This document shows positions 8,455 to 38,914 of a stretch of 64,000 bases of DNA, in pieces. Source of the stretch: Selaginella tamariscina (Eukaryota; Streptophyta; Lycopodiopsida; Selaginellales; Selaginellaceae); the NCBI GenBank assembly GCA_003024785.1, contig PUQB01000561.1, positions 1 to 64,000 on the forward strand, written 5' to 3'. The position numbers and the translations under genes are program-made. The first letter of the stretch is position 1; each line of letters begins with the position of its first letter. The notes under the pieces are model-generated. The model worked only from the letters and a program-made list of their open reading frames with translations. It was not told the DNA's origin and searched no databases.

Positions 8455-8741
8455 TGATGCCAAGCCAAGTTCATGACACTATCATGGGTGTCAATTGGCG
8501 GCTGACGTATGTGATGATGTGGTTGATGACGTGTGTGATGACATGGCTGCGGACGTATGTGTTGACGGGTCTATTGAGGAGGTGTATAACGGGGAAGATG
8601 AGGTGTATATAGAGTTTTGATGTAGCTAGAGAGGTAGTTAAGCGGCGTAGAACGTAGAGGAGAAAAACTTAGAATTGTTCGTTGTATTTAACCCCATGAA
8701 TAAACTTCTAACATTCCATATCAATTGGCTCTGTGTTGTCA
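8455..8741 (+). mobile_element. Possible LTR-like insertion between protease and RT
   Basis: The segment begins TGATGCC, ends TTGTCA, and interrupts the gypsy relic between protease and RT. It carries three TGACG motifs (8503, 8527, 8563) and a TGACA variant (8539), a TATATAG box at about 8606 and an AATAAA at 8699. That order is expected of U3-R-U5 in an LTR. TGACG is the core bound by TGA-type bZIP factors in plants. No matching target-site duplication is visible (GCAGG against AGGCG), so the boundaries are unproven. Confidence 0.4.
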
Positions 8742-11989: not shown

Positions 11990-13048
11990 TTAATCTAGCT
12001 CTAGGCTGACATTTAAGAGCATTATTTGAAGTAGACAGTTGATTCTTAAGACAATTTGAAGAAATATGTTCTTTTTTCCCACATGTATAACATGTAAGAT
12101 TACTTGAATTCCTTCTTTATATTTCTCCTTGTTTATAATCATTTTGATCTCATAAACTTCTTTTCTTGGATAGGACCTATTTGGTCCTCTGTAGGAAGTT
12201 TCATTCCTTCCCATATTAGGCTTATATGATGGAACATAGTTAGTTTGATTCCTTTCATACATCTTATCATTTCTTATATAAGGAGCATCCCTTCTATTAT
12301 TGACATGATTTTTATTTCTTCCTTCCTGCTAATTCTCAATATTTGCCATAATATAGCTTCCTATTATGAGATGGGAATATATTAACAGAGGTTGTCTCAC
12401 AGGAAGCGGCTTGTCATATCGACCTTCCTTTCTTCCTTCTCTTTCCACATGTGCTACGTTTTGATTAAGGAAATACTGCTGAATGTCCTTCTTTATCATA
12501 TATTTGACATTTTGACAACTTTATCTACATTCATCTACAGTATGCCTAGGATTTTTGCACTTGGCATACTTTGACATCCAATTCCTTATACATAAAACTA
12601 CTTTTTAAGGATTTTAACAACTGTAATAGCATTTTCTCATTAGTTTTATAATCCTGAACCTTAATAGGTTCTTCCTCATCATATGAACTATCCTTGAGGA
12701 TTTCATTTTTTCTTTAGTTATATTCTCTATTTGTCTTCTTTTTTCTCATAATCTTTTAAATGATTTACAAGATCTTCTCTGTTTATTTTTTGAATGGTAT
12801 TACATAATGGCTTCTGCAATCCTTGCTTATACCATTGAAGCAAAGCATCTTCTTTAACATATAGTTTATATTTCTTTTTATGCTTCTTAAAACGGTGTGT
12901 ATATTCTTCTATAATTTCAGTTTTTGCTTGTAGAATATTCATGAGCTTCTCTAAATGCTCTTCAGGCACCTCTTCTTTCTTAAAATATTCTTTGAAAGCT
13001 TATGTCACTTTCTCATAATCTTCTCTCAAATCTTTCTTAATTCATAAT
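11990..13048 (-). pseudogene. Gag relic with one CCHC knuckle, interrupted by a nested element
   Basis: The frame at 12727-12969 (LEKLMNILQAKTEIIEEYTH and following, charged and helical) resembles the gag of the neighbouring element in position and composition. A zinc knuckle, C-x2-C-x4-H-x4-C, can be read near 12020-12110 across a frame break (CGKK, HISSNC). Upstream gag continues at 19333-19960 beyond the nested element; one 5-bp sequence, ATAAT, is present on both sides of it. Confidence 0.7.
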
Positions 13049-13684
13049 TGTCAAGCCACGATCCAGGAATCAGGAAGAGAGTAAGATTCCAAGAACAGGA
13101 AGGCTTGACTCAGGAACAGGACCGAGAGCAGGATGGAACTAGGAACAGGGACATGACAGATCCAGGAGCAAGACAGGATCAGGATAGGATCCGGGAGCAA
13201 GACAGGATCCAGGAGTAAGACAGAAACAGGACAAGATCCGGGAACAAACAGGAGCAGGATAAGATCCAGGAGCAGGACAGGATCCAAGGCAGGACAGGAA
13301 ACAAGACAAGAACAAGACAAGACGAGATTGATCGTAGTAAGACTGTGTTGATAGTAACTGATTGTACAACAATTAGGTCGGAGCTTTTATGCTCACAACT
13401 CCAAGAACTAATCTAGGCATGAGTGCTAAAAGTGGTTGCATGCATGCAAAGTGACTGCATGCATGCAAAGGCTAAGATGAGTCCACATGTCCCTTATCCT
13501 CTAGGCATATCCTGTGGCATATCCTATAGGAATATCCTGCAACCGTATCCTGTGTCCGGAATCCTGGTAGGAATATCCTGTAGGAAAATCCTGCAACCCA
13601 TATCCTGTATCCGGAATCCTGTAGGAAAGTCCTGCAACCCATGTCCTGTATCCGGAATCCTGTATTCTGTATCGGGTCGTGACA
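13049..13684 (-). repeat. Left (3') LTR of the chromovirus
   Basis: Length 636 bp, slightly shorter than the right LTR because of indels in an internal purine-rich minisatellite (about 13080-13320, period near 12, CAGGAGCAGGA-like). The other half (about 13490-13680) is built of TATCCTGTA and GGAATCCTG words. Contains TTGATAGTAACTG at 13348-13360. Confidence 0.95.
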
Positions 13685-13700
13685 GCACCTCCTCCCTAAA
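13685..13700 (-). other. Polypurine tract of the chromovirus overlapping the pol stop codon
   Basis: Minus-strand TTTAGGGAGGAGGTGC directly precedes the 3' LTR. The pol stop codon TAG (13698-13696) lies inside it, so coding sequence runs to within 12 bases of the LTR. Confidence 0.85.
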
Positions 13701-14131
13701 GACGAGTTCCACGAGTCTTGGGACCTGGTTTAGCAGGATAATGCCGATGGAAGGCAGCAACCTTGGAAGAAGCATGGAGTAAGTTGGATGCAGGTTCCCA
13801 AGTGCGATCAGTAGGCATACCCTTTCCAATCCACCAAGTATTGGAGTTGTGGACGATGAAGACGAGAATCAAGGATGGCTGCAACTTCGTACTCAGGTTC
13901 AGTGTCAATGACCACAGGAGGGGGAGGAGAAGAAACACGACCGGGAAGAGAAGAAGGATGATACGGCTCCAACGAGGTGTGAAACACAGGATGAAGTTTC
14001 ACCGTGGATGGTAACTCGAGTCGGAAAGCTACAGGATTTACCTCCGCCACGATCCTGTAAGGGCCCAATCGTTGAAAATCCAACTTAGAAGAAGGCCTGT
14101 TGGTGCGAATGTGTCGACGAAGAAGCCACAC
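13696..14131 (-). pseudogene. Integrase C-terminus (GPY/F) and chromodomain
   Basis: The minus-strand frame 14131-13808 carries FQRLGPYRIVAEVN, the GPY/F module, then LHPVFHTSLEPYH, a linker and the first half of a chromodomain (EYEVAAILDSR, LQYLVDWKGY). The second half (TWEPASNLLHASSKV) continues in another frame to the stop at 13696, so one base has been gained or two lost near 13810. Chromodomains of this family bind methylated histone H3 tails and steer integration into heterochromatin. The aromatic residues expected in the fold (Y of EYEV, W of DWKGY, W of TWEP) are all present. Confidence 0.9.
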
Positions 14132-15400
14132 GAGATCACCAATCTTGTATGCAGGTGCCGGCTGACGGTGAGCATCAGCATGATGCTTGTATCGTTCCTG
14201 TGCCTGCTGAAGATGAACCTGGAGATCATCCTGTACCTGCCGAAGATGCTGAAGACGATCCTGTACTGCAGGAGCGGAAGAAGGAGAAGCGGAGGAGCAA
14301 AGTCAAAACGTGGATGGTGGCCTGTAAGAGCAAAGAAAGGTGTCTGTCCTGTAGATGCGTGAATGGAGTTGTTGTAGGCAAACTCCGCCATTGGAAGAAG
14401 GTCCAACCAGTTGTCCTGCTGGTAACTGATGAAGCAACGAAGATACTGTTCAAGGTCTGAATTGTGCGTTCGGACTGCCCATCGGTTTGTGGGTGATATC
14501 CTGAAGAAAGATCCGCTTTAACCTGTAGACTCCGAAGAAGCTCTCGCCAAAACTTGGACATGAATTGTGGACCTCGATCGGAAACAATGCTCTCAGGAAG
14601 ACCATGATGTCGGAACACCTCACGGATCACCAACTCGGCAGTTGTCTGACCTGTAGCTGTCTTGTTGCAGGGTAGGAAATGAGCCTGCTTGGTGAAACGG
14701 TCAACCACCACAAGAACTGCATCGAATCCACGAGAAGGAGGAAGATCTGTGAGGAAATCCATAGAAATGGATCTCCAAGGAGCAGAAGGAACAGGAAGAG
14801 GACGAAGAAGACCAGAGGGTGCATGATGAGGCATCTTCGACCTGCTACAAGTGTCACAACTCCGTACAAACCTCTCCACAAAACCTCGCAACCCAGGCCA
14901 CCAATAGTTGCGAGTCACCAACTCCACTGTCTTGGCCACACCAAAATGTCCTGTAGCCGGGGTATCATGACAATCCTGTACCACACGAGTCCTGGAAATA
15001 CCAACAGGAACGTACAGGAGACCTTCCCGGTACAGGAGTCCATCCTGTATGGTGAACAGGTTGTAGTCTGGACGGGAACTGGAGGAAGAGGAACTTGCAA
15101 CGTCAGGATGAATGTGTGAGAACACATTCTTTGCCAAGTCGTCTGTAGCCAACTGCGAACGGACGTCCTGTAGGAGTGTTGAATTTGCTGGAGCCTGATG
15201 AACCTGCAGTGCCGCAAGCCGGAATCGATCAGGACCCAACAACACTTGCCTTTGACAGTCAAATGCAGGATCGCCCGGGCTTGGTGCAAGGTAAGAGCGC
15301 CTAGACAATGCGTCCGCCTTGCCATTCCGAAAACCGGGCCTGTAGACGATGACGAAGTCAAAACGTGATAGGAACCGCCCACCTAGCCTGTCGCCGACTG
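14040..15400 (-). pseudogene. Chromovirus integrase
   Basis: Minus-strand integrase with an HHCC zinc-binding domain (HDTPATGHFGVAKTVE, then CDTCSRSK) and a DDE core: D in MDFLTDLPPSRG, D in IVSDRGPQFMSKF, E in YHPQTDGQSERTIQTLN. The frame breaks just after the E motif near 14380. The following words WLDLLPMAEFAYNNSIH and GQTPFF are in a different frame. All catalytic residues survive, so decay is recent. Confidence 0.92.
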
Positions 15401-15890
15401 AGAACTCGAGCCGTTTGAAAGTACTCCAGGTTCTTGTGATCCGTAAGAACTTGTACAGGATGTGCAGCACCTTCCAGGAAATGCCGCCACTCCTCAAACG
15501 AATCCACAATGGCCTTGAGTTCCTTGTCATGAATCTCGTAATTGATCTCCGCCGACAGGAACTTACGAGAGTGAAAAGCTACAGGATGAAGCAACTTGTC
15601 CTCTCCAACTTGCGATAGGACGGATCCTACTGCAAAATCCGAGGCATCTGCTTCAATGAAGAAAGGATGAGAAGGGTCAGGATGTGCTAAAATCGGAGCT
15701 GTCGTGAAACGTCCTTGAGTGTTGTGAACGCGTGTTCCGCCTTGTCGGACCAAGAGAAAAGCCCTGTGCGCTTGGTGAGTTCTGTGAGTGGAAGTACACG
15801 CTTGGAGAAGTCCTGTATGAACCGCCTGTAGAAGTTTGCAAAGCCAAGGAAACATTGTACATCTCGTACCGACTTGGGCCTCTCCCACTC
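15350..15890 (-). pseudogene. Chromovirus RNase H
   Basis: Minus-strand frame reading [45 protein letters not shown] and [11 protein letters not shown]. These are the usual catalytic D-E-D positions. A frame break near 15400 separates it from integrase (ADALSRRSYL). Confidence 0.9.
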
Positions 15891-16640
15891 CACGATGGTC
15901 TTCACCTTGTGCATGTCCATGGAAACGCCAGCAGGAGAGACGATGTAGCCCAAGAACTCCACCGAATCCCTATCGAAAAAACACTTCTCCAACTTCGCGT
16001 ACAGGCCATGCTCGCGAAGCCGCTCTAGAACTAGTCGTACATGCTTGTCATGTGCCGCCTGGTCCTTGGAGAAAATCAAGATGTCGTCGAGGTAGATCAC
16101 CACAAACTGGTCCAAGAAGTCACGAAAGATGTCGTTCACCATGTGTTGGAACACGGCTGGGGCATTGGTAAGGCCGAAAGGCATTACCGTGTACTCAAAA
16201 TGTCCATACCTTGTACGAAAGGCAGTCTTCCACTCATCGCCGGGACGAATCCGTACAAGGTTGTAGGCCCCTCGTAAGTCGATCTTCGTGAACACCTTTG
16301 CTCCTCGCAGCCGATCGAGAAGTTCCGGGATCAATGGCAACGGGTACCGATTCCGAATGGTGACTTGATTCAAACCCCTGTAGTCCACAACCAAACGTAA
16401 ACTCCCATCCTTCTTCTTGACAAAGAAGATAGCTCCTGCAGGGGACTTTGAGTGACGAATGAAGCCGGATGCCAAGTTGTCCTCGATGTACTGACGAAGA
16501 ACCTCCAACTCTGTGGGTGACAATGCATAAATCGGTCCGAATGGTGGAGTCTTTCCTTCCGCAAGATCAATAGGACAGTCGTAGGACCTGTGAACAGGAA
16601 GAACTGCAGCCTTGTGCTTGTCAAAAACGTCCTTAAAGTC
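15690..16640 (-). pseudogene. Chromovirus reverse transcriptase
   Basis: The minus-strand frame 16523-15687 contains [47 protein letters not shown] and the catalytic YLDD box in [13 protein letters not shown], then [13 protein letters not shown] and [15 protein letters not shown]. The frame is unbroken through the catalytic core, with a frame change near 15760 at the start of RNase H. Confidence 0.95.
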
Positions 16641-16799
16641 GTGATACTTGGATGGTAGGGAAGAAGGAGGAGAAGGAGAAGGAGAGAAGGAGATTGAAAA
16701 ACAGGAGAGTCGGATACAGGAAAGGTAGAAGAGGACGTAGGAGTTACTTGAAAGGCAAAAAGGTGGAAAGGAGCAGGATCAGTGGCGAGTTCATGCATG

Positions 16800-17864
16800 G
16801 TAGTGGTAAGAACTCGGAGAGGAGAAGGAGGGAGCTGTGACTGAAAAAGAGGAAGGATCTTGGGGGTGGAACAGAAGCAGGGTAACAGAAAGAGCAGGAT
16901 TGGAAAAAACCTTGTGGGTGTTGATGAGTGTACAGGATTGGAAGAATCCTGTACAGGAGTCCGTGGTTGCGCAGGAGGGAAAAGCCTGCGAATGTGCTGA
17001 CGAATCAACAGGAGGTGGATCCTGTTGAGGAGGAACCTTCGACACTGATACAGGATTGGAAGAACCCTGTACAGGACACCGCAAACTTACAGGAGTGGAG
17101 AGAGCCTGCGGATGTGCTGAGGAACTGACATGAGGTGAATCCTGTCGAGGAGGAGTCTTCAACACTGGTACAGGAACAGGCACGGTCAATCCTGTAGCTT
17201 GTACTGCCTCAGATACTAAGGATGTATCCTGCACACAGGAAGGTACAGGATTGATCCTAGCTGTCGGAGAGGAAAACGTGAGCGTCCTAGACCTCCAGTC
17301 GATCTGCGGATTTGCAACAACGAACCATGGCATGCCCAAAATGATGGGAGTCGACCGAGTCTTGATCAAGTTGAAGGAAATTGAACAGTTGAATGTGCCA
17401 TACTGCAGGAGAGAGGTTCGGTAGCATGGGTAACTGCCCAGAAGCAATAGACGCCCATCGGCCACCTCTACAGGAACTGCACGCTTCAACTTCACCACCG
17501 AAATGCCATGTTGAGTTGCAAACGTGTCATCCATGAAGCATGCATTTGCACCAGTGTCTAACAAGGCAAACTCCATGAGCTCTCGATTATTAAGATGAAT
17601 GTGTACAGGAAACTTAAGTGATGGATGGTATGAGCAGCACCAATGGAGCCTGCACCTACGTCCAACTTCGCGGCTCCTAGACGAAGTGGACATTGGAGTT
17701 TTCCGACTGAACTTCAGCTTCAACTTCACGCGTCTTGAAGTTCCTGGCTTTAATAGGACAATCTGCCACCTTGTGTCCTGCTCCACCACAATACAAGCAC
17801 AGGTTCTCACTGCGACGACGTTGCTTCTCAGCAGCGGAAAGAGAGCCACGCTTGGATTTCTCAA
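16800..17864 (-). pseudogene. Chromovirus protease and long low-complexity linker
   Basis: Retropepsin active site in FALLDTGANACFM, followed by a flap region and IILGMPWFVVANPQIDW. The 200 residues that follow are Pro/Ser/Val-rich (VPVPVPVLKTPPRQD and repeats), built from an imperfect in-frame repeat. In this linker the DNA word TACAGGA and the palindrome CCTGTACAGG (16948, 17066) are especially dense. Confidence 0.85.
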
Positions 17865-18574
17865 CCTCCATAGGAACTACTCCAGAAGGTGGTGCAGGAA
17901 CATGTACCACAGCTGCAGGATTGGTTTGCAGGAACTTGACGGGATCTTTCCTGACGACGCTCGAACAAACGGTTGTCGCAACGAAAGCTTGTTGCATGAT
18001 CTCGACCAATGCAGTCTCATCCCATGGAATGTTCATGCAAAGTTGCTGAAATTCGGATGCATAGACGGAAGCTGGTCGGGATCCTTGAGTGAGCTTCCGT
18101 AACTTCGTGCATGCAGAACGGTACTTATCAGGATTTTCAAAACAGGCTTCAAAGGCAGCCACAAAACCTTCAAAGTCTTCCATCAATGGGTCGTCACGCT
18201 CCAGCAAGGAGCAACCCAAGCTTGTGGAGATCCACTTAGTAAGGATGCCAAAAGACCCACCTTTGAGCATCAGTCGAGTAGCGCTGTGGTTGCATACGAA
18301 TCAAGAGCCGGATCTGATTCAGGAAACCTTGGAAATCGGCACGATTGCCACTGAACTTCTCTGGCATGCTAACCTTCGGCTCCGAAGAAAAGTTCGATGA
18401 AGAGGGAACCACTGATGCCTGGGAGAGAGCCTGTGCAGTAGCCTTGGAGGATGCATCAGTAGCTGCATGTGCCGCATTGGTGAAACCTTGTAGGTCGGTG
18501 ACCACTTGGCGCAAAGTGGCCAGCTCATGAAGTAACATTTGGTGCTCGCATTGAAAGCGCTCAAAATCAGCCAT
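17677..18574 (-). pseudogene. Chromovirus gag with one zinc knuckle
   Basis: Start codon at 18574 (MADFERFQCEHQ), 78 bases inside the primer-site region. A frameshift near 18260 separates the N-terminal part from the capsid-like region (FEGFVAAFEACFENPDKYRS) and the nucleocapsid with CLYCGGAGHKVADC, a standard C-x2-C-x4-H-x4-C knuckle. The length, about 290 residues, is normal for a chromovirus gag. Confidence 0.88.
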
Positions 18575-18651: not shown

Positions 18652-18666
18652 CAGTTACTATCAAAC
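18652..18666 (-). promoter_or_regulatory. Self-complementary primer-binding site of the chromovirus
   Basis: Directly inside the 5' LTR, 18652-18664 reads CAGTTACTATCAA on the plus strand. The same LTR carries the exact complement TTGATAGTAACTG at 18995-19007. In the element's RNA (minus strand) the two would pair over 13 bases. No TGG-starting tRNA-type site lies here. This is the arrangement of Tf1-type self-priming, in which the RNA 5' end serves as primer. Confidence 0.75.
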
Positions 18667-19332
18667 TGTCAAGCCACGATCCAGGAATCAGGAGAGAGCA
18701 GGATTCCAAGAACAGGAAGGCTTGACTCAGGAACAGGACCGAGAGCAGGACGGAAGTAGGAACAGGGACAGGACAGATCCAGGAGCAAGACAGGATCAGG
18801 ATAGGATCGGGAGCAAGACAGGATCCAGGAGTAAGACAGAAACAGAACAGAATTCAGAAACAAGACAGGAGCAGGACAGGATCCGAAAGCAGGACAGATC
18901 CAGGAGCAGGACAGGAAACAAGAGCGAGACAGGAGCAGGACAGGAAACAAGACAAGAACAAGACAAGACGAGATTGATCGTAGTAAGACTGGTGTTGATA
19001 GTAACTGATTGTACAAACAATTAGGTCGGAGCTTTTATGCTCACAACTCCAAGAGCTAATCTAGGCATGAGTGCTAAAGTGGTTGCATGCATGCAAAGTG
19101 ACTGCATGCATGCAGAGGCTAAGATGAGTCCACATGTCCCTTATCCTCTAGGCATATCCTGTGGCATATCCTGTAGGAATATTCTGCAACCGTATCCTGT
19201 GTCCGGAATCCTGGTAGGAATATCTTATAGGAAAGTCCTGCAACCCATATCCTATATCCGGAAATCCTGTAGGAAAGTCCTGCAACCCATATCCTGTATC
19301 CGGAATCATGTATTCTGTATCGGGTCGTGACA
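18667..19332 (-). repeat. Right (5') LTR of the chromovirus
   Basis: Length 666 bp. On the minus strand it starts TGTCACGACCCGATACAG and ends GGCTTGACA. It has the same two halves as its partner: TCCTGTA-rich U3 and a purine-rich minisatellite (about 18720-18965) in R/U5. The palindromic words TGCATGCATGCA occur twice near 19085-19115. Confidence 0.95.
19001..19040 (-). promoter_or_regulatory. Predicted core promoter and transcription start of the chromovirus
   Basis: On the minus strand GCATAAAAGC (19040-19031) is a TATA-type box. Thirty bases downstream begins CAGTTACTATCAA (19007), the sequence that can pair with the primer site. Box-to-start spacing of about 30 is usual for RNA polymerase II, so the predicted RNA 5' end coincides with the self-priming sequence. 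Confidence 0.65.
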
Positions 19333-19962
19333 ATAATATCAATTAGATGCATTTCCTTTAATGTGTGAGGAAATATAAGCAACTTATCTACATTGCTTGC
19401 TTTATATAACTTCATAACTTCCTCAAACTGCAATAAGTGTCTTTTAGGATTTTCCTTCTTTCATGCGGAAAATATTGGGTACATCAATGTGCCTCCCAAC
19501 ATTCCAAAGAAAGTGTTATATTATACATTTTGGTGGGCTTTCTCTACCACCTTCCTCCTCACTAAGAGGGAAACTTCCAAGAGATACTCCTCTCGGCTAC
19601 TATGAAATCCTCTTTTCCGAGGAGTTCCTTCCAACTTTCTTCTCCTGCAGTTTGATAATCACCGCATTGTATATCCTCCACACCTTTAGTGGCACTTTCT
19701 CCTATTTGATTAATGAGTCTTATAAGAGCTTCTTACCTATTAGTAAGATATATTTACTCAGCAAGGACAACCTCTCTCTCGGCTTGCCTATTATCTCTCT
19801 TTCTATTAAAGATGAATTAGGATTATAATACCTCCAAAGCTCCATCCATCATCATATATACACACTGTTTTTTCTCACTTAAGTTTTACTTCTTTTAGAG
19901 CTATTTCACATATATCACTTCTCACTTAAGAATTTCACAAATTCCTACACAACAATGGCGAA
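19333..19962 (-). pseudogene. N-terminal gag part and leader of the defective gypsy element
   Basis: Continuation of the host element's gag on the other side of the nested insertion, with minus-strand words LLIFPHTLKEMHLIDI just before the junction. Further right the frame is broken, and the sequence becomes the untranslated leader up to the primer-binding site. Confidence 0.55.
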
Positions 19963-20871: not shown

Positions 20872-21452
20872 TGTTAAACCCGTAATTTTCCTACTCTCCG
20901 TACTTCGATAAACCCGTACTAAGGGTCTGCCGGATTAAATTACGGACGTAATCAGACATCAGAAAATCAGGAAAGAGGGTAAGGATGGCAAGGTATATAG
21001 CAGTAGCAGTACTACGAATCCCGTCATAGTACTGGAAAACAAGAATAGTATACTACATCACAGAAATATGAGTAAGAGATAGACGTATTGAGAGAGAAAG
21101 GAAACTTATATTATGTCCGCTCACGGTACATAGTACAATACAACAGTATACTCGGGATGCCCTTCTAGTCCTTATTTGGCCTATTTATACCCGTACTAGC
21201 AGTTACCATAACTGCCTCCTAGCCTTATCCATTCGGTTACTATAACTCCTTATCCTTATCCATAAATGCCGTACTCCGCTTTTACCATATTGCGGTGTCG
21301 CCCCGTATTGGGTGGTGCATCAGTAACTCGTACTCCGATATATTCCTTTCCACTCTCGGTTTTCCATAATATATATTATTTTTGATATTTTCCCATTTAC
21401 ATTGCCCATGAAATAACAAGAAATTCTACTAATGTCTAACTATGCTCCTAAA
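20872..21452 (-). repeat. Left (3') LTR of the 20.87-29.97 kb element
   Basis: Begins TGTTAAACCCGTAATTTTCC, near-identical to the right LTR over its whole length. Its inner edge reads AT in place of the expected TG, one of few differences. High identity between LTRs indicates a fairly recent insertion. Confidence 0.95.
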
Positions 21453-21464
21453 TCCCCCCAAACT
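21451..21464 (-). other. Polypurine tract of the 20.87-29.97 kb element
   Basis: Minus-strand AGTTTGGGGGGATT immediately upstream of the 3' LTR. Confidence 0.85.
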
Positions 21465-23640
21465 GGAAGTGTTGCATCGTCCCGATGCAACCTTATGATG
21501 TGCCCGCATTGTGCGCACATAGAACTGTGAAGCCCTTCAACTTGAGATTTTCTTCACGTAACTTCCGTACTTCTTCCGCATCATCCGATGTTTGGGTTGC
21601 GCCGGGTTGAAGTCGCTGACCTTCTCATTACTACGGACTTGCTCAACTAATGTATGCACGGTATCCATAAGTACCTTGTTTGATCGTACAACCGACGTAT
21701 TGATATTCGACTGCTCCGAATACTGCTTGTCAAGCGTGTTGCAACGGTCATGAAGCTGCTGATTGAAAGTAGCTTCCGCGTGTTGAAGTGCTATCTGCTG
21801 CATAATACCATCAAAGACATTGCGAAGATGAGTGAGCTGACCTTCAATTGTCGTATCCTGTGGTGGGTCTTGTGGTGGCAGTCCGGGGTGAAGCTGTCTG
21901 GTCACGAGTGCGCTTCAAACTTCTCGAGACATCGCGCTCTTGTCGATCCGAAGCGTGATGACCCATCTGCTGTATCGGTGAATAGGGCTGTTGCGGGTGC
22001 TCCTCTTTATCGTATTCGTTGTTGTTCTTGGTAGATAGTCCAGGTGTTGGTCCTGCCAAATTCGGTTCTTGTCCGAATGTCGTACTGTGGACTCCCGTAC
22101 ATGCTGCACTGGAGGTCTACCTGAGGGGGTATGATATGAGTAGATGTACCTGCCGTAGTTTGGTGGTGACGGAACTACGGGAGGATTCGTACTAGTGAAT
22201 GGCACAGAATCGTCATACTCCATGGGTTGTGGAACTCGGTCTGTAGCCGTATTATGATCTGATAGTGCTGTACCATCACCTGTCGTATGTGGTACAGAAG
22301 TTGATGCTGTCTTATTTCGCATTCTCCGTTGATCTCCTCGTGGTAATGGTCTCCGCTGTAGCACTTGATCATCCCCTTCATCCTCATCCAAAAGCCGGAT
22401 TACGATTTCGGGCTTCTTTGTCTGTGGCTCCTCTAGCTTTCGTGGATTGTGTCGCGGTCGCTTCTTTGTTTTTGTTGGTAGTGGCGCATCCAAATTACGG
22501 ACATCAAACACATTATCAGGATACTGATTCGTTAACCCAACCAAAAACCTATTCGCAATGTAATTACCGGTGTACCTTCAGGTGCTAAGTCACATACGTA
22601 ATATTCAGACTGGTAAATATGATGTAGCACTGAAATACTGTCGTTTCCTTGTCCTTGCCTTTCGGTTGTGCAGCGTTCAACTCCCGTAGTAGCCCTACTA
22701 CGACTAGTTCCCCCAATCTGGTTTCTGTCCCTGCTCAGATTGGTGATAAACATACCCGATCTCCTTGTTGAATCCTGCTGGTGTTTTGCGGAAAGCGAAG
22801 GCAGTTGTAATAGCCTTAATACGTCCCTTATGCGGTTCTCGCAGGATTGATGTTGGTGCCGCATTTGCCGTCTTTTGTTTTTGCCAAAACTTGTCCATGT
22901 TATCGTTAATGTTGAACATATGTATGGACTTGTGGAATTGGATCATAAGCAATATCTGGTTCTAAATCTAAACAGATTGCGAATGAGCTTACTTGAAAAC
23001 GCAAATGCTCCACCCTGTAGTTGCAAAGCCTTGTATTGTGGTAGATACGCCTTAATCGCCTGATCGACCAAATGTTCCCCTTGTTGGTCCAATCGCTTGT
23101 GCACGAATATTTCGAAATATCGCTCTAGCTCATCTCAATCCATTCGCGAATGTCCGAAATCAGTGTTGCTGGACGAACAATCCGATACAGCACTGGCGCA
23201 AGTGGAATTGACACCGCTGGCTCCGATTGGGAATCGACATTGACCCCTGTTGCCGAATTGCTTGTCGTATCAGTATACTCATCCATGGATTCCATACGCG
23301 CCCTTGAAATAGAAGAAGAGAGGAAAGAAAGAAAATTGAAGTTGGAAATGACGAAGAAACTAAGGAAGAATTTTGAAACCCTATTGAGTGCTGGCGGCGC
23401 CGAGTACCCTTAACTTATACTCCGAAAATTTATGGTCTGTCAATTTCTGCGCAGCTGCCCACGTGTCAAATTAGATTGGTTGTTGTGTAATTTCCTTGGT
23501 TTTCGATAGATTTGATAGGAAATATCTCATCATTGGATTTTGCATTCCTCGGACTTGTCGCTATCTTGGATTCTGTCCTTCGCTCGTGTGACTTATTCTG
23601 TTGATGTTTCGAGAAGATTCTGCTGACGTCGACCTCCAAC
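21465..23640 (-). pseudogene. Accessory coding region between integrase and 3' LTR
   Basis: About 2.2 kb of minus-strand coding-like sequence in several frames. They are a frame at 22864-22532, a 209-codon frame 22544-21915 that is rich in Pro, Arg and Thr with basic runs (KTKKRPRHNPRK), and a 122-codon frame 21905-21537 with coiled-coil-like composition (LRNVFDGIMQQIALQHAEA). Upstream words GEHLVDQAIKAYLPQYKALQ and FEIFVHKRLDQQ lie near 23000-23100. No transmembrane segment or envelope-like feature was seen, and no known domain was recognised. Such 3' regions are known in Athila (env-like) and Tat/Ogre elements. Whether this one is homologous to either cannot be said by eye. Confidence 0.5.
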
Positions 23641-23799
23641 TAGCTACACATTTTTCCTTATCGTCTTCCGAGTTACGATTTGATCGTATTCCGTGTTAAT
23701 GTTTAATACTGATATGTCTGTGTCCATCGGATCGTGCTCCGTATTCCGGATCATTCGAGATCTTCTGCTGGCTTGTTCGTTGTATATTTCCGTACTCGA

Positions 23800-24910
23800 T
23801 TCATATTCGTAGTAAGTATGACTCTTGTTGTACATCCATCAATATGACCGTATTGTTTTCTCGTATGTCGGTAATTATATACGGTCCCTGCCATTTGGAC
23901 TTGAATTTATGACCAATCGGTCGAAGATTCCCTTGATAATGCCATACCATGTCTCCGACTCGGAATAAAGGTCGTCGTTGTACCGTCGTAAACGATCGTG
24001 CCATGCCTTAATACGGGTTTGTATAGCTTGTATATTAAAAACTGCTTGTTGCCGTTTTTCATCAAGTTTTTCTAGTTGTAGTAGCCGTTGCTTAACTTGC
24101 TCTGCTTCCCCAATGCCGTATTCAAGTGACATCCGTAATGATGGTATAATATACTCTATAGGAGTAATTGCTTCCAATCCATATGTAAGTTGAAATGGAG
24201 TAAACTTTGTGGCCACTTTATACGTAGTACGATATGCCCATAATGCTGATGGAAGTTTTTCATCCCAATTCTTACGATTAGTGTTTACTATCTTGGTTAG
24301 TACTGTCTTCAATATTTTGTTGTAGCCTCTGCCTGTCCGTTTCCTTGTGGATAATACGCAGTAGAGGTGTAATGTTTTACTAAATACTCGTTGCAAAGTA
24401 CTTTGATGACGTTGTTAACGAAATGACTTCCTTGATCACTGATAAGTTCCATTGGGGCGCCAAATCGTACTACGATATTCTCATAGATAAACTTAGCTAC
24501 CCGTATTGCATCAATGCGATAGCCTCTGCCCATTTAGTAACATAATCCGTGAGTACCAATATATATTGATTCCGCTTACTACTTTTAGGATTGATTGGTC
24601 CCATGAAATCCATTCCCCATTTCATAAATGGAGCTAATGGTTCCGTTGGATGCAATGGTTGTACTTGATGATGTGGAGCTGGTTGGTGTTCGTTGCATTT
24701 CAAACACTTTTGACAATAGTCGATAGCGTCCTTGAATAACGTGGCCACCATAATCCAGACTGTAATATTTTTTGCTGTTAATGTTCCTGCAAAATGTCCG
24801 CCATGTTCTCCAGAATGAGCTTCCCGTAATACGGTCTGTACTTCTTCCATTGGCACACACCTCCTTAACACTTCATCTTTGCCTTTCTTATATAATATAC
24901 CTGACACTAT
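23800..24910 (-). pseudogene. Integrase of the 20.87-29.97 kb element
   Basis: The minus-strand frame 24907-24497 carries the zinc-binding part ([29 protein letters not shown]) and the first catalytic D ([11 protein letters not shown]). The second D is in LISDQGSHFVNNV and the glutamate region is QGNGQAEATTK. The next frame continues KNWDEKLPSALWAYRTTYK and a GPY-like C-terminus (FKSKWQGPYIITDI). Frame breaks occur near 24500 and 24390. Motifs are complete. Confidence 0.9.
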
Positions 24911-24989
24911 GCAGTATGGCTTACATCGTAATACGAGTTGCTTTCGCTGCTGCGTTGTCGCGTACTTAATCGGTGCTGTTCCAGTAGTT

Positions 24990-25830
24990 AAGAAATATTT
25001 AATATCTTGCAGATATCCTTCGTAATTTCCTGCTTTGGTGGTTGTTCCTGTTGTACCTGGAATAAGTTAGCATCTGGTAATTCATCATTCACGCCAACAC
25101 CTTCTTCGTCATTCGTAATTCGACTTAGGAAATCTGCTTGTTGGTGTAATTTGCCTGGTTTGTGAATGATTTGAAAATCGAACTCCTGTAATAATAAAAA
25201 CCAGCGTACTAATCTTCCTTCTAGCTTAGTCTTGCTTAGCAAATGTGTCAAAGCTTGATGATCAACAATGAACTTGACTTTGTTTGCAAGTAAATAATGT
25301 CGAAATTTCTTTGCTGCATAAACCATTCCGAGAGCTCTTTTTCCGTAGTCGTGTAATTTTCTTCCGCAGGTGCTAATCGTCGACTTGCGTAATATAATGG
25401 TCGATCTTTCCCATCCTCTTGGGTTTGCGTTAATATGCATCCAATAGCGTATGACGATGCATCCACTTGTACATGAAACTCCTGTTGCCAATTTGGACTC
25501 GCTAAGATAGGAGCCTTCATTAACGCATGCTTCAGTGTATTGAAACTCTGTTCGCATTCCGCATCCCATTTGAATGGTTGTGTTTTCCTCAACAGCATTG
25601 TTAATGGCTTCGCTATTGCTGCATAATTTTTAATAAACCTTCGATGATATCCCATCTTCCTAAAAGCCGTCGTACTCCACTTACGTCTTTAGGTGGTTGC
25701 ATTGTTTGTATAACTTTGATTTTATCTTGATCCACCATTATTCCGTCCTTGCAGATAATGTGTCCAAGCAAAATCCCTGATCTCACGGAAAACACGCACT
25801 TCTCCGGATTAAGAGCTATATTGTTCAATC
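24990..25830 (-). pseudogene. RNase H of the 20.87-29.97 kb element
   Basis: Minus-strand frames with VQVDASSYAIGCILTQTQED, LYYASRRLAPAEENYTTTEK, ALGMVYAAKKFRHYL and FIVDHQALTHLL give the catalytic positions. These are followed by the tether GRLVRWFLLLQEFDFQI and KLHQQADFLSRI. A break near 25330 shifts frames. Confidence 0.88.
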
Positions 25831-26477
25831 GGCATTTCCCAAAACATTTAGTAAACAGTCCAAGTGTATATCTTGCGCTCCATAAATACTGAAATCATCC
25901 AAGAAAACTTTCATAAACGTGGTCAAATAATCCCGAAATGTTTCGCTAACCAAACGTTGAAAGGTAAATGGCGCATTACATAGCCCAAAAGGCATCACAC
26001 GATACGCATATGTACCCCAAGGACTGATGAATGCCGTTTTCGGTTGATCCTCAGGATCTACTTGAACTTGGTTGTATCCTGAAAATCCATCCAGAAAAGA
26101 ATACATTTCATGTCCTGCTACTGTATCCAACAATTCTTCGGTGAATGGTATTGGGTACGTATCTCGCCTCGTTACATCATTCAACTTCTTATAATTAACA
26201 CAGATACGTAATTTGCCATTCTTCTTTGGGACTACGACTATCGGTGATAACCATGCGGGTTTTCAATTGGATATATGAATCCGGCCTGTAATAATTTGTC
26301 CACTTCTTCTCTCACTTTCGCTAAAAATGTTGGATTCATTCGATATGCTTGCTGTTTCCTCGGAACTGCATGTGGTAATAATTCTATCTTATGAGTGCAA
26401 ATCGTAGGTGGAACTCCCTTAAGATCTTCATAGCTCCATGCAAAAACATCTGCATTTTGACGTAGTACGGATATCAA
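25825..26477 (-). pseudogene. Reverse transcriptase of the 20.87-29.97 kb element
   Basis: DVFAWSYEDLKG and VDKLLQAGFIYPIENP in one minus-strand frame, then a 1-base break near 26240, then LNDVTRRDTYPIPFTEELL, MPFGLCNAPFTFQRL and the catalytic FLDD box (KVFLDDFSIYG). FLDD is an accepted variant of YxDD. Confidence 0.9.
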
Positions 26478-26509
26478 TTGTCTTCGGTATTCCGGCTCGA
26501 GATCAACTG

Positions 26510-27346
26510 CTATTCGTACTTTTCGTGGTCCATATTCACTTGTTTTAATTTCAACTTCTTCAGTCTTCTCATTCGTAGTAATTTCCAGTTTTTGTTGAGT
26601 ATGCTTTGTTCATGCTCCGTCTCGAATTGTAGCTGCTGCTGCACAGGTTGTTTAAACTTATCCGTTAGTCCAAGAGTATTCATGTGTTGGTGTTGTTGAT
26701 CACTAGTTACTGTCTTGTCCATGTTTTCTTCTTCCGGCGTCATCTGGTATAAATCCGCTTGTGCTATCTCTATAAGGTCTGGATTACTTTCGAATAGGAG
26801 TTTTTCTTCTTCTCTATTCAAACCGTAATGCCAGTCGAAATCCTCCATTTGCAATGGTCGGGTCGGTCGTCCTATTGGTTTCTTCTGCTGCGTTCGAACA
26901 ACCGCTTCTCGTCCACTCTTATAGAGTACCATTTCGTCATGCTCCCAATTGTGTCGTACTTTCGCATCCCTTAACCATGGTCTTCCCAATAATATCTGGT
27001 ATGGTTTACTAGTCTGCTCGATACGTAATACGACTAAAGACACTTTAAACTTGATTCCTGCAATTTCCATACACACAGATCTGATTATACCAATGGGTCT
27101 TACTTTCCTCTGATCAGCCATCCGTACCAAGAAAGGCGCATTTTCAATAGGCCCCAGTCCCAATTGTTTACAAATCTGTTCTTCAATTATGTTGACTCCT
27201 GAACCTCCATCAATGGGTATATTCTGAATATTGTTTTTACCAATTCGAGCCGTAATCATTGGCACCTCCTCATCCCAGTCCTTCTCATCTGTAAAAACTT
27301 CCGTGGTATTCACTCCTACCTGACTTGTATCGCCTTGAACATCCAA
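26510..27346 (-). pseudogene. Protease of the 20.87-29.97 kb element with a DGGSG active site
   Basis: An open frame of 278 codons on the minus strand. The active-site region reads IPIDGGSGVNIIEEQ in place of the usual D-[ST]-G-A, with the flap region and LLGRPWLRDAKV downstream. The C-terminal part is acidic, then strongly basic (RMRRLKKLKLK). The DGG form may be a lineage trait, since the relative at 11.0-11.4 kb has an equivalent site that has since mutated. Confidence 0.8.
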
Positions 27347-27539
27347 AGCACTTGTTATCTGTGTCGTAAAAATGGTGCTAATGTCAATAACTCCTTTATA
27401 GTTAACTGTACAGGTTGTTGCAGAATCACCGCCACAATACGATCTCCAAGTGGTACTGTTGATGTAGATTGCTGTGACTGTGTGCTTACTTCATTAATTG
27501 TCGAATCTTGACTTTCCCCTTGTTGTATTTTCTGAATTT

Positions 27540-29171
27540 GATCAGTTACGTTGTACTGTAGCCTTTTCTTTCTCCCAATTCTTCCGTATTGGTTCCTCTT
27601 TGTTTGGCTCCATTCGTACTCGCTTGGCTCGTGTTACCGCATACGTCTCAGTTGAGGGTAATTCTGCATCTTGCTCCCATTTACACTCGAAATTTTGTTC
27701 TTGATACTCATCTGGTAAGTTATCCTCTTGTTGAACTTCAATTCTCCGTGTCGCTGGTTCAGTGGATGATGTTCCGGTGTTAAATTCACGTTGCGGACAT
27801 TCTGATGAATAATGTCCCAACTCTCCACATGTGTAACAGCGAATATTGTTAAGTCGATTACATTCAGTAGAATAGTGTCCTTTTTTCCACATCTAAAACA
27901 TGTCACATTTGGATTCTGTCCTCGTAATGCTGGTGGAGGTGGTATTGGTGGTAATAACGGTGGTCCTAACTGTGCCGGAGCTGGTAACAAAGGTTGTCCT
28001 CTGCGTGGTATATCCATATTATTATTTTGTCGGTATAATGCTCCAGATTCACGGGGAAATCTCCTTCCATTTCCATTTCTGCGTTCCCCATTATACGATC
28101 TTTGTGGATATCGTATGAATTAGCATTCCGATTGTTGTTCCATCTAGGTTGTGATGGAAAATTGTCAGTACGTCCCATGTTCCGACATTGCCTCGCTTCA
28201 TGACCTATTCCTCCACACATCTGACATTTGGGTATCTTACATTCAGAAGAATTATGCCCCTCATTTTTGCATGTTGTGCAAAATACTGCTTTGGTTCTTG
28301 ATCGTATTTCGCTATCCTTCCGGTATTGCCTTCTTGTTTCCCGTTCATCTTCATCTACATATTTTGGGGTATCACCACTTCAAGTTGTTCTGCCTCTTTA
28401 ATTGCTTCAATAAATCAGGCGGTTTGATCAGTCGTACTTGAAGCTGTAAATTGTCTCGTAATCCATTGATATACCATTTCTTTGCAAGTTTATCACTGAT
28501 ATCTCCGACCTCGCAGCGATTATATAATCTCCAAATCGTCGAGTGTAATCCTCCACTGCCTCAGTAGGTCCTTGTCGTATTTCTTGCAACTGCACTGTCG
28601 GATCTCGTTTTCGATACTTTCGTACATAATAATTCCTGAATACTGTAAGTAGTACACTGTACTTATCAATTGTGTTAGCATTTTCGTAATACCAATCGCT
28701 AGCATCTCCCTTCAACGTAAATGGAAATATTCGTAATTTCTCATCTTCATCCTTGATTTCATTGGCTATGCACGCCTTCTCAAACTGCTGAATATGCCGA
28801 TTCGTATCTTCATTCTCAAGACCTGAAAAAGTAGCTGGTATACCTTCCCCGTAATTGTTAATGTTCCCATCTCATCCGGTAATTCTTCTAACAATTGTTC
28901 CCAGTTTCCTCGCGTTGATATTCGGGACTCTCGTCACTTCCCTGATTCACGTCCTTCTCTCCTGTGCTTCACCGCACTTTGTCGTTTGTTGCTCCTGTCC
29001 TCGAGCTTCGGCTTGTTCCTTTCTTTTCTGTTCCTCACGTTCTTCAATCCTCTGCCGTGTCTCTATTACTGCTTGTCGCCGTACATACCGCTCCTCACGT
29101 TCTCTTTGCTGTCTCTGCTTAATTTCTTCATATCTTTGGCGTTCTGCAAGAATACGTCGATAATCATCCAT
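27540..29171 (-). pseudogene. Gag of the 20.87-29.97 kb element with four zinc knuckles
   Basis: Starts near 29171 (MDDYRRILAERQRYEE), a highly charged coiled-coil-like N-terminus of about 70 residues. A capsid-like region follows at about 28860-28430 (KGDASDWYYENANTIDKYSV, VEDYTRRFGDYI). The nucleocapsid holds four CCHC units: CTTCKNEGHNSSEC and CQMCGGIGHEARQC (28285-28185), CFRCGKK...HYSTEC across a frame break (about 27905-27860), and CYTCGELGHYSSEC (about 27845-27800). Spacing in each is C-x2-C-x4-H-x4-C. Frameshifts occur near 28430, 27990 and 27880. Confidence 0.85.
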
Positions 29172-29370
29172 TCACCTACTATAAGCCACAGATCCATTCT
29201 CACGAGGTCTTCGGCTCACTTTGCTCCCTTTTCGCCATAGCTACACCAAACGCATCCAAGACTCTCGCCTAGTCTCAATCTTTTTCCTTTCGTCACAACT
29301 CCTTTGAGTATCAATCTGCCTCTCCTGCTACATATTACAAACACATTATCAATCACCTACTAACACGACC

Positions 29371-29388
29371 ATCCCTCCGTGGTCGCCA
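29371..29388 (-). promoter_or_regulatory. Primer-binding site of the 20.87-29.97 kb element
   Basis: Minus-strand TGGCGACCACGGAGGG, 2 nt inside the 5' LTR. It matches the primer site of the 9.5-20.86 kb element at 14 of 16 positions. Confidence 0.8.
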
Positions 29389-29390
29389 TA

Positions 29391-29969
29391 TGTTAAACCC
29401 GTAATTTTCCTACTCTCCGTACTTCGATAAACCCGTACTAAGGGTCTGTCGGATTGAATTACGGACGTAATCAGACATCAGAAAATCAGGAAAGAGGGTA
29501 AGGATGGCAAGGTGTATAGCAGGTAGCAGTACTACGGATCCCGTCATAGTACTGGAAAACAAGAATAGTATACTACATCACAGAAATATGAGTAAGAGAT
29601 AGACGTATTGAGAGAGAAAGGAAACTTATATTATGTCCGCTCACGGCACATAGTACAATACAACAGTATACTCGGGATGCCCTTCTAGTCCTAATCTGGC
29701 TATTTATACCCGTACTAGCAGTTACCATAACTGCCTCCTAGCCTTATCCATTCGGTTACTATAACTCCTTATCCTTATCCATAAATGCCGTACTCCGCTT
29801 CTACCGTATTGCGGTGTCGCCCGTATTGCGGTGGTGCATCAGTAACTCGTACTCCGATATATCCTTTCCACTCTCGGTTTTCCATAATATATATTGTTTT
29901 TGATATTTTCCCATTTACATTGCCATGAAATAACAGAAATTCTACTAATGTCTAACTATGCTCCTAACA
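29391..29969 (-). repeat. Right (5') LTR of the 20.87-29.97 kb element
   Basis: Runs from TGTTAAACCC to CTCCTAACA, 579 bp. It differs from the left copy by scattered substitutions and small indels only. Confidence 0.95.
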
Positions 29970-29999
29970 ATTCCCAAACACTCTTTGAATGCCTCATCG

Positions 30000-34079: not shown

Positions 34080-35110
34080 GATCGTCGTGCTGCAGTTGTT
34101 GATCAACTCAAGAAGGAGTATGCTGATCTTTTCAACTTCGACTTGTTATTTGGGCCAAGATTGCAACACGCCATCCTATTCCAACTGGAGATGCTAGGCC
34201 AATCAAGGTACCTGTTTGGCACCGGTCACCAAAGGAGCTCAAGATCTTACAAGCGAATGTCAAAGAGATGTTGGAGAAGGGTGTTATCCAAAAATCTCGA
34301 AGTCCTTGGGCGTGCGAACCTCATATTGTGACGAAGCCTGATGGGAGTGTTTGTTTCCGCATTGACTATTGCCCATTAAATGAGGAGCAGGACAAGGCGC
34401 ATGACAGGAACTAGGAACTCAGGAGTCAGGAGTAGGACAAGGGAGCTTGACTCATCTGCTCCAAAATCAAGGAAAATGCAGGATTTCCAGATTTTCGGCT
34501 GCAGAATGCAAGGGAAATGACTTTTCTCATACTGCAGACCTTTTGGATCGACTGGGGCGGAGCCGTTGGTTCACCAAGTTAGATCTCGCATCTGGATATT
34601 GGCAAGTTCCGATGGCTGACATGGACATTCCCAAGACTGCTTTTCGGACACCATTTGGCCTGTACGAGTTCTTGGTGATGCCTTTCGGTTTGAGCAATGC
34701 TCCAGCAACTTTCCAACGTATGATGGACGAGGTTCTTTGCGACATGCCGGAGGTGACTGCCGATTTCATCGATGATGTTTTGATCCATTCGGATGGAACG
34801 TGGAGGAGCATGTCGGTGATGTACGTAAGGTTTTGGATCGGCTGCGGGAAGTTGGTTTGAAGTTGAAGCCATCTAAGTGTGTGTTTGGATCAAAGGACAC
34901 CACTTATCTGGGTTATCGCATTTCACGTGAAGGTTTGCAAGTCGATCCTGACAAACTAGTTGCAGTTTTGAAGTTCCCTACGCCAAAGTGTGTGAATGAT
35001 GTGCAACGCTTTCTTGGCAAGGTACAATATCTGGGTCGTTTTGTGGATCATCTTTCAGATCGTACTGCACCGTTGCGCGCGTTGTTGAAATCGTCAATGA
35101 CTTCTTTTGT
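34080..35110 (+). pseudogene. Reverse transcriptase of the compact gypsy element
   Basis: The N-terminal part ends CFRIDYCPLNE at about 34385. About 120 bp of unrelated sequence follows. The domain then resumes with DLLDRLGRSRWFTKLDLASG, MPFGLSNAPATFQRM and the catalytic FIDD box (TADFIDDVLIHSDG), and after a frame change continues LGYRISREGLQVDPDKLVAV and VQRFLGKVQYL. The inserted piece replaces the usual dozen residues that contain RKDSYPLP. Confidence 0.88.
34383..34530 (+). other. Filler sequence inside the RT, resembling chromovirus LTR
   Basis: GAGCAGGACAAGG, CAGGAGTCAGGAGTAGGACA and GAGCTTGACTC are purine-rich words typical of the chromovirus LTR at 18.70-18.96 kb (AAGGCTTGACTCAGG, GAGCAGGAC). 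No terminal repeats or target duplication are visible, so it may be repair filler and not a clean insertion. Confidence 0.5.
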
Positions 35111-35139
35111 TTGGTCTAAGGATTGCAAGCAGGCATTTG

Positions 35140-35580
35140 CAGATCTCAAAGAGTTGTTGACGACTCCTCCAGTTTTGGCGTACCCGGATTACACCCGTCC
35201 TTTCATCTTGCGTGTAGATGCTTCTGACATCGGCCTCGGGGGTATTGATGCAGGAGAGTACGAGTGTTCCTGGCCAACGACATCCCATTGCGTACATCAG
35301 CCGTACATTGCAGCCAGCAGAGGTGAATTACTCCACGACAGAAAAGGAGTGTCTAGCAGCAGTTTTTTGAGAAGCTCCATGCCTACTTGCATGGTTCGCG
35401 GACGTTGTTGGAAGGCGATCATGCAGCAGTCACTTCGTTGTTGAAAAAAAGAATTTGATTGGGTACTGCTCGGTGGGCCTTGAAACTTCAAATTTACGAC
35501 TTTGAAGTTGTTCATCGTCCAGGAAGTTCCATGGCTGATGCTGATGCTCTTTCTCGGGCTCCTCTTCCACCTTCTCTCTC
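35140..35580 (+). pseudogene. RNase H of the compact gypsy element
   Basis: FILRVDASDIGLGG in one frame, then PIAYISRTLQPAEVNYSTTE and KECLAAV in the next. The ending is KLQIYDFEVVHRPGSSMADA, followed by DALSRAPL. Confidence 0.82.
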
Positions 35581-35749
35581 TTCTGTTGCCCCAGAGGAAC
35601 CAGTTGTTCCAGCTTCAGTGGACTTTTTGGATGAAGATTCCGTACCATCAGCAGTTGCTGTGCTTGACGTTCAGTGTCCGCAGAATGCAGAGTTAGATTT
35701 GCCGTCTTTGGATGAGGTTCGGGAAGCTCAAAAGGTTGAGCCGTGGATT

Positions 35750-36950
35750 CGAAGGCTTCGTGATGGGTTTGAGAATCCTGCATCACTTGCTGATGACTTG
35801 CCTTTCAGGCATTTACATTCGCAGTATCGCCTTCAGGATGACCTTCTTTATTTTGTGGGGACTGATCCAGATGATCCTTTGCGGTTGGTGGTGCCTTCAA
35901 TCTTCATTCCACGCTTCCTCCATGCTTACCATGACTCTCCTATTCTTGGCGGGCACATGGGACATCGTCGGGTGATGGAGAAGCTGCGCAGATCTTTCTA
36001 TTGGCCGGAGTTGCGAGGAGATGTGATTCGGTATGTGCGCTATGTGTGGTGCCAAGCTCGCAATACTCCCCCATGTGCTTCGGAAGGACGGTTGGAGTCA
36101 ATTGCAGTTTCTCGTCCGTTTGAATTGGTGGCATTTGATTTGATGGGACCTTTTCCGCGGTCAACTGCTGGTAACGAGTACGTTATTATTGCTTCTGATT
36201 ACCTAACTCGTTGGGTAGAAGTTGGTGCTCTTGCTAGTGCGACTGCTTCTGCTGTTGGTCAGTTTCTCCTGAATCGGGTCGTGTTTCAGCATTCTTGTCC
36301 GGAGCGAATTCTCTCGGATAATGGTCCATTTATGGCTGAGGCATTTCATGTTTTGAATCTCGATTAGGGATACGCCACACTTTCACAAGTGCTTATCATC
36401 CTCAGACAGATGGTTTAGTGGAACGGCTCGTCAGAACCTTCAAGGGGATGATCGCAAGTATGTGAACTTTCAACATTCGATTGGGATGGTTATCTGCCGT
36501 CTCTCCGATATGCTTATGTCACTGGAGTTCAAAGTTCCATTGGTACTTCCCATATAAGCTCTTGTATGGTCATGACCCGGTGTTGCCAACGGAGTTGGGT
36601 TTGCCTTCTCGGTTACCGAGCTGCTGATGCTAGGTCGTGGGATCGGTATCTGACGAGCATTCTTCCATTGGTTCGTGCGGAGTCAGCAGAACACTTGGGC
36701 CGCGTACAAGTAGGACAACAACAACGCTACAACTCGCATCATCGTCCTCCTGGGAGTACAAGGTTGATGAACTGGTGTTGGTTCGTTTTCCCAAGCTTAC
36801 GGTACGTGGTTTAGCTAAGAGTCTCCTTCCTCAGTGGAAAGGACCGTATCGAGTGCTACGGCAAGTAGGGCCACAGGTTTATGAGGTTCGGCACGACATT
36901 CAACCCGATCCTCCGGAATTGTACATGTACAACGGTTGAAGCATTTTGTG
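35750..36950 (+). pseudogene. Integrase of the compact gypsy element
   Basis: Zinc-binding region HDSPILGGHMGHRRVMEKLR. The first of the paired cysteines is replaced (YVRYVWCQARN). Catalytic D in FDLMGPFPRST, second D in ERILSDNGPFM, then a stop at 36365 and the glutamate in TDGLVERLVRTFKGM in another frame. The C-terminal GPYRVLRQVGPQVYEV module ends near 36940 without a chromodomain. Confidence 0.88.
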
Positions 36951-38731: not shown

Positions 38732-38914
38732 TGTCACGACCCGCACTTTTGCATGCATGCAGAGGCTAAGATGAGTCCACATGTCCCTTATCCTCTGTAG
38801 GAATATCCTGCAACCGAATCCTATGTCCGGAATCCTGGTAGGAGTATCCTGTAGGAAAATCCTGCAACCCATATCCTGTATCCGGAATCCTGTATTCTGT
38901 ATCGGGTTGTGACA
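38732..38914 (-). mobile_element. 183-bp internally deleted solo LTR of chromovirus type
   Basis: Begins TGTCACGACCCG and ends CGGGTTGTGACA, flanked by a perfect 5-bp duplication CCTTT (38727-38731 and 38915-38919). From TTTTGCATGCATGCAGAGG onward it matches the U3 half of the chromovirus LTR (about 19085-19332). Its left end corresponds to the LTR's left end with three differences. About 450 bp of the LTR interior, including the promoter and the self-priming sequence, is absent. Confidence 0.88.

Follow-up and report, generated by a model that had tools for sequence, protein, structure and literature searches.

The window, that is, the whole stretch of 64,000 nucleotides that was analysed, carries on its minus strand a Ty3/gypsy element framed by ATAAT duplications, which were read directly at 13044-13048 (3' side of the element) and 19333-19337 (5' side). 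Its LTRs, the 5' LTR of 666 bp at 18667-19332 and the 3' LTR of 636 bp at 13049-13684, both have the form TG...CA, and the K2P distance between them is 0.039. Between the LTRs, and on the same strand, open reading frames and Pfam matches place gag in two overlapping frames (17680-18571, with the Retrotrans_gag match in the second), followed by a frame with aspartic protease matches (16794-17876), the reverse transcriptase (RT; 15690-16778, found also by protein search and placed in a tree), RNase H (15361-15969), the integrase with its H2C2 and rve domains (14229-15578) and, at 13811-14302, the integrase C-terminal SH3_Tf2-1 domain (E 4.8e-17) together with the first half of a chromodomain. 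The Chromo match scores 25.6 bits against a cut-off of 25.1 and covers positions 1-28 of the 53 in the profile, since the frame breaks there; comparison of the chromodomain with solved structures gave no match. A likely polypurine tract, AGGGAGGAGG, was recognised by eye at 13688-13697 (minus strand), 3 nt before the 3' LTR. As the coding region is distributed over several frames, this copy of the element is probably dead. Scans of the window with Rfam at the gathering score and with ARAGORN under the bacterial code returned nothing.

The same window contains, at approximately 63490-61436 on the minus strand, a TFIIB gene with introns, which is 86% identical to that of Selaginella moellendorffii and 80% identical to that of Diphasiastrum. 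Besides one partial Brassica row these are the best matches among the best 120 of 1,240 that were listed, and judging from this gene the host is a lycophyte near Selaginella. Other retroelements lie in the window as well. A second Ty3/gypsy element occupies 20872-29970, with direct repeats at an offset of 8516-8520 that enclose minus-strand fragments of protease, RT, RNase H and integrase, and the remnant of a further one lies on the plus strand at 34405-36367. Finally, a 183-bp insertion at 38732-38914, between copies of CCTTT, resembles a portion of the U3 in the element's LTR (81% similarity); it starts with TGTCACGACCCG and ends with CGGGTTGTGACA, lacks the TATA and primer region and, on these features, is a short solo LTR or a non-autonomous relative.

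In the sense direction the 5' LTR ends in TTGACA at 18667, followed by GT and then by the site TTGATAGTAACTG, which occupies the position of a primer-binding site. As read in the window, the letters at 18652-18664 are CAGTTACTATCAA, and their exact reverse complements are found at 18995-19007 in the 5' LTR and at 13348-13360 in the 3' LTR. The preliminary description of this DNA had reported this 13-nt complement, and when the window was read and searched again the coordinates proved to be the same, as did the TATA-type box GCATAAAAGC (19031-19040, minus strand), which it had put about 30 bases upstream of the LTR copy and whose CATAAA begins 32 nt upstream of where the pairing starts. It had also let the site adjoin the 5' LTR; the location near the LTR end holds, but the distance is 2 nt and not 0 nt. 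Searched over both strands of the window with at most one mismatch, CAGTTACTATCAA has exactly these three matches (shuffle mean 0.20). For complements that begin no further than 6 nt from the LTR end, dinucleotide shuffling of the LTR (5,000 rounds) gave at most 11 nt and shuffling of the leader (5,000 rounds) at most 10 nt, against the 13 nt observed. The LTR stretch with which the primer-binding site can pair starts where the spacing from the TATA box places the RNA 5' end, and this stretch is the predicted 5' end of the element's RNA. A tRNA 3' end used as primer requires TGG in the site. The 30 nt that follow the 5' LTR contain no TGG, in agreement with the earlier remark that the site is not of the tRNA type, and a tRNA 3' end therefore cannot be the primer.

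The two sites were compared among copies in the host assembly (300.7 Mb in 1,391 contigs). A search with the LTR was scored for 40 of 4,345 candidates and a search with the RT for 112 of 19,998; the RT matches so listed are all 93-100% identical, and many of them are 97-100% identical in protein to the window copy. The 40 LTR places and 20 leader regions chosen from the RT list, one of them shared, gave 59 places, of which 14 were dropped, as no site could be recognised past their LTR (solo or 3' LTRs, or rearranged copies), and 45, including the window copy, were kept. Primer and site pair at all 13 positions in 32 copies, at 12 in another 11, and at 11 and 10 in one copy each. Watson-Crick pairs fill 569 of the 585 cells, whereas sites shuffled among copies gave a mean of 556.7 and reached 569 in none of 20,000 rounds; with pair 13 omitted, the value observed for pairs 1-12 was reached in 53 of 20,000. 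Since the copies have a common ancestry, the cells are not independent events.

Compensatory changes were found at two positions. Pair 13 is C:G in 31 copies, T:A in 5 and a mismatch or gap in 9, so that T:A replaces C:G in five copies; the association of C/T with G/A at this pair has a Fisher p of 0.001 in the 21 copies with G or A, the table being drawn from the first set of 26 copies with complete primer and site, five of which fall outside it. Pair 6 is T:A in 42 copies, a gap in one and the compensatory A:T in two (L108 and L115), which look like one subfamily. Some copies also carry one-sided changes, which look like damage after insertion. Nine of the 13 copies that do not pair throughout fail at pair 13 (five C:C, two T:G, one T:C and one gap), and the exact first base is therefore uncertain. 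The TATA box is invariant across the aligned copies (mean 39.8); the primer window does not exceed the LTR average in conservation (percentile 0.46), owing to variation at its first and eleventh bases.

A scan of genome contigs for relatives of the element yielded 25 loci, all of them in prokaryote records and taken as eukaryotic contamination; a search of viral contigs confirmed none. Six of these relatives (L001, L002, L003, L007, L008 and L019) have the same layout: a primer of 11-12 nt, ending in CAA, starts 31-33 nt from a TATA box, and a site that is its exact complement lies 2 nt past an LTR end that reads TGACA (TAACA in L019). Their primers are ACTCTTGATCAA, AAGGCGAACAA (in three), AAGGTGAACAA and CAGTCTCGACAA, that is, four sequences other than that of the window element, each with its exactly matching site. 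Directly after the primer the window element has CACCAGTC (18987-18994, minus strand), and five of the six relatives have CACCAGTT or CACAAGTT at this place, L008 being different. When a complement of at least 11 nt was sought with CA nearby and a TATA box at 30-34 nt, 7 of 26 sequences (the 25 loci and the element) had the complete arrangement, against an average of 0.03 in 60 shuffled sets; dropping the TATA condition left the same seven and raised the shuffled average to 1.07. Many of the remaining 19 are contigs too short upstream of the RT, and some are not. A bare search for complements also returned chance-like matches, such as 13 nt in L022 and 11 nt in L016, and because of these, and of the 1.07 per shuffled set without the TATA box, the context is required. 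The more distant L017, with a 14-nt pair between leader and 3' LTR and no TATA box in register, was kept out of the seven, and L006 retains the site and a U3 arm with a 5'-LTR primer that no longer matches fully.

Our results show that primer and site change together, among the copies and among the relatives. The co-variation to which the preliminary description had tied its reading is thus present at both levels, as compensatory changes within the family (45 copies) and between families, and both support the Tf1-like self-priming that it had inferred. We propose that the element very probably primes from the 5' end of its own RNA. By analogy with Tf1, the genomic RNA would fold its first 12-13 nt back onto the site, RNase H would nick after the ...CAA, and the freed 3' OH would prime minus-strand DNA. 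The new plus strand would then copy the primer, and in this way the binding site would be rewritten in each cycle as the complement of the RNA 5' end, so primer and site would stay in step. If the plus strand copies the primer, the complementarity should not extend past the RNA 5' end; its end lies 31-33 nt from the TATA box in each of the seven elements.

Among other explanations, the one that survives best is that the family formerly self-primed and no longer does, the match being inherited. The window copy is indeed frame-broken and its LTRs are 3.9% apart. Nevertheless, the many RT copies 97-100% identical in protein to it (among the 112 of 19,998 that were scored) and the subfamilies carrying matched new pairs argue that self-priming continued during the spread of the family, and we consider such a relic unlikely. 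It is less probable still, and by our estimate quite improbable, that the inverted repeat is kept for a leader structure serving translation, packaging or transcription control while priming is done otherwise. Compensatory changes show the pairing and not the step that uses it, and a second helix forms too; however, in all seven elements one arm is placed as a primer-binding site would be, 2 nt away from the end of the LTR, and the other coincides with the RNA 5' end predicted from the TATA box, where the complementarity stops, and no alternative primer site was seen. Priming by a tRNA, through its 3' end or as an internal half-tRNA, with the complement as a by-product, is in our estimate very improbable: tRNA-Met is used by most plant chromoviruses and half-tRNA primers occur in plant copia elements (PMC6317226, available text), but besides the missing TGG the primers of the relatives vary and yet always match their own LTR, which a fixed tRNA does not explain.

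Self-priming from the RNA 5' end is also consistent with the predicted structure of the leader RNA. In each of the seven leaders that were folded, the mean pairing probability of primer and site is 0.94-0.96. A second helix, between the sequence following the primer and the end of the LTR, is better than in shuffled sequences (p <= 0.022) in five of the seven, namely the element and four of the six relatives, and is unsupported in L008 (p 0.53) and L019 (p 0.27). In the window element the U5-IR-like 5' arm CTACGATC (18976-18983, minus strand) pairs with GATCGTGG (18674-18681, minus strand), close to the LTR end, and GTC pairs with GAC (E -16.1, p 0.016); an unconstrained fold of its leader does not choose this helix. 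A third, 'pretzel' helix, sought in the 30 nt after the site and in about 80 nt after the primer, is unsupported in all seven (best p 0.070; 0.97 in the window element). In Tf1 and Tj1, similarly, the RNA 5'-end primer is complementary to a site by the 5' LTR, and sequence adjacent to the primer-binding site forms a second helix with sequence after the primer (PMC10085805 and PMC4600332, in the text available). Tf1 is described there as having, and needing, three helices (PMC10085805), whereas the third is unsupported here, so the likeness to Tf1 holds in two of three structural respects. The window element further differs from Tf1 and Tj1 in its spacer of 330 nt between primer and site and in that its priming is predicted from sequence. 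This spacer is 108-153 nt in the six relatives. The U5 of the window element (18689-18986, minus strand) is expanded by a degenerate repeat, and from the end of the primer to the end of the LTR the sense strand is 73% C+T.

Self-primed elements must keep the primer copy of the 3' LTR from pairing with the binding site. Five relatives (L002, L003, L007, L008 and L019) have a U3/R hairpin, with a stem of 12-13 positions and a loop of 4 nt (one mismatch in L007), that extends across the predicted start and over most of the primer. Its folding z scores are -3.6 to -6.2, matched by 0 to 13 of 5,000 U3 shuffles, and the sequence of the U3 arm changes along with primer and site, so that in these five the covariation is three-way. 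Since transcripts include the U3 arm only at the 3' LTR, such a hairpin would mask the 3' primer copy and leave the 5' copy free. With the U3 arm, the predicted openness of the 3' primer copy falls from 0.45-0.73 to 0.11-0.18 in four of the five and from 0.20 to 0.14 in L008; it also drops in L001, which lacks the stem (0.87 to 0.55), and does not drop in the window element (0.54 to 0.63). A U3/R hairpin was considered and rejected for the window family, where three forms gave z scores of -1.09, 0.53 and 0.39 and 272 of 5,000 shuffles equalled it. Being absent in L001 and not significant in the window family, the hairpin is not universal, and as L002, L003, L007 and L019 are closely related there are two or three independent cases at most. 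Masking by this hairpin is a tentative suggestion for the relatives, one we hold to be rather improbable.

We classify the element, whose host is a Selaginella-like lycophyte, as a Ty3/gypsy chromovirus and place it in the Tf1/sushi assemblage (plant Tcn1-type). The 120 listed of 7,961 matches to its RT include unnamed metagenome proteins of up to 76% identity, and those among them that are named come from vertebrates, fungi and a few angiosperms. In a quick RT tree of 95 of 140 rows (very short rows omitted), the element groups with eight others at SH-aLRT 95, within an assemblage that includes frog, fish, reptile and fungal sequences. A branch of length 0.81 (SH-aLRT 100) splits the 90 rows that include it from two Tanacetum rows, one of Lotus, L018 and L021. 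The Tanacetum and Lotus rows, from which the element is thus far removed, we take to be tRNA-primed plant chromoviruses. The proteins retrieved included no named Tcn1 or PpatensLTR2 sequence, and the probable assignment to the plant Tcn1 clade is based on the RT placement, the host and the chromodomain. With that clade (PpatensLTR2, SM-Tcn1) the element shares the chromodomain Ty3/gypsy type, a Selaginella-like host and an RT on the Tf1/sushi side. It would also share self-priming, which Neumann and others predicted for the majority of plant Tcn1 elements and, in the available text, for no other plant chromovirus group (PMC6317226). The Tekay, Reina, Galadriel and CRM chromoviruses have overall the same gag-pol domain order with a chromodomain but use tRNA sites (same text), unlike the window element, which is a Tf1/sushi-type element of a non-seed plant and not an ordinary tRNA-primed plant chromovirus. 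Self-priming is likewise predicted in plants for the TAR-lineage Ty1/copia elements Houba and Osr-1 (PMC6317226, available text), which belong to another superfamily, whereas ours is Ty3/gypsy with a chromodomain.

Where do the relatives come from? Nine of the chromovirus contigs (L001-L007, L019 and L025), and with them five of the six relatives (L001, L002, L003, L007 and L019), are in a bin named uncultured Trichormus, a genus that includes Trichormus azollae, the cyanobiont of Azolla. This bin has 16 matches to PPR_2, 15 of them above the cut-off, and there are none in the L008 bin or in any of 14 control genomes. For an 828-aa PPR frame of the bin the best named relatives, after its own record, are the ferns Ceratopteris and Adiantum (about 33% identity), with Diphasiastrum and Cryptomeria lower in the list. 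These matches suggest that the contigs are probably Azolla DNA. None of the contigs seen joins a retroelement to a fern gene, neither the bin of L001 nor that of L008 yielded a plant TFIIB, which is uninformative, and L019, which has a GC-rich, bacteria-like stretch, may be chimeric. That five of six relatives lie in a bin with fern-like genes suggests that the group also occurs in fern DNA. Earlier work differs in this respect: in a PCR survey Tcn1-like clones came from Selaginella alone among the lycophytes, ferns and horsetails tested, PCR failure being allowed for (PMC2864245), and in a later survey all listed members of the clade are from mosses and club-mosses (PMC6317226), each as far as its available text goes.

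Self-priming in this group had already been predicted in print, and the element described here is a further case, for which the evidence is stronger than one copy alone could give. Compensatory changes in 45 copies, together with six relatives that carry four further primer sequences, now back what had been a prediction for plant Tcn1-type elements. Because the family is abundant and many of its RT copies are nearly identical, the living plant could be searched directly for the ends of its RNA and cDNA. For SM-Tcn1 of S. moellendorffii, with an LTR of 440 bp against the 666 bp found here, Novikova and others reported evidence of neither tRNA priming nor self-priming (PMC2864245, available text); the present element, with its clear self-priming pair, is a clear case from a Selaginella-like plant, a setting in which the element described first had shown none.
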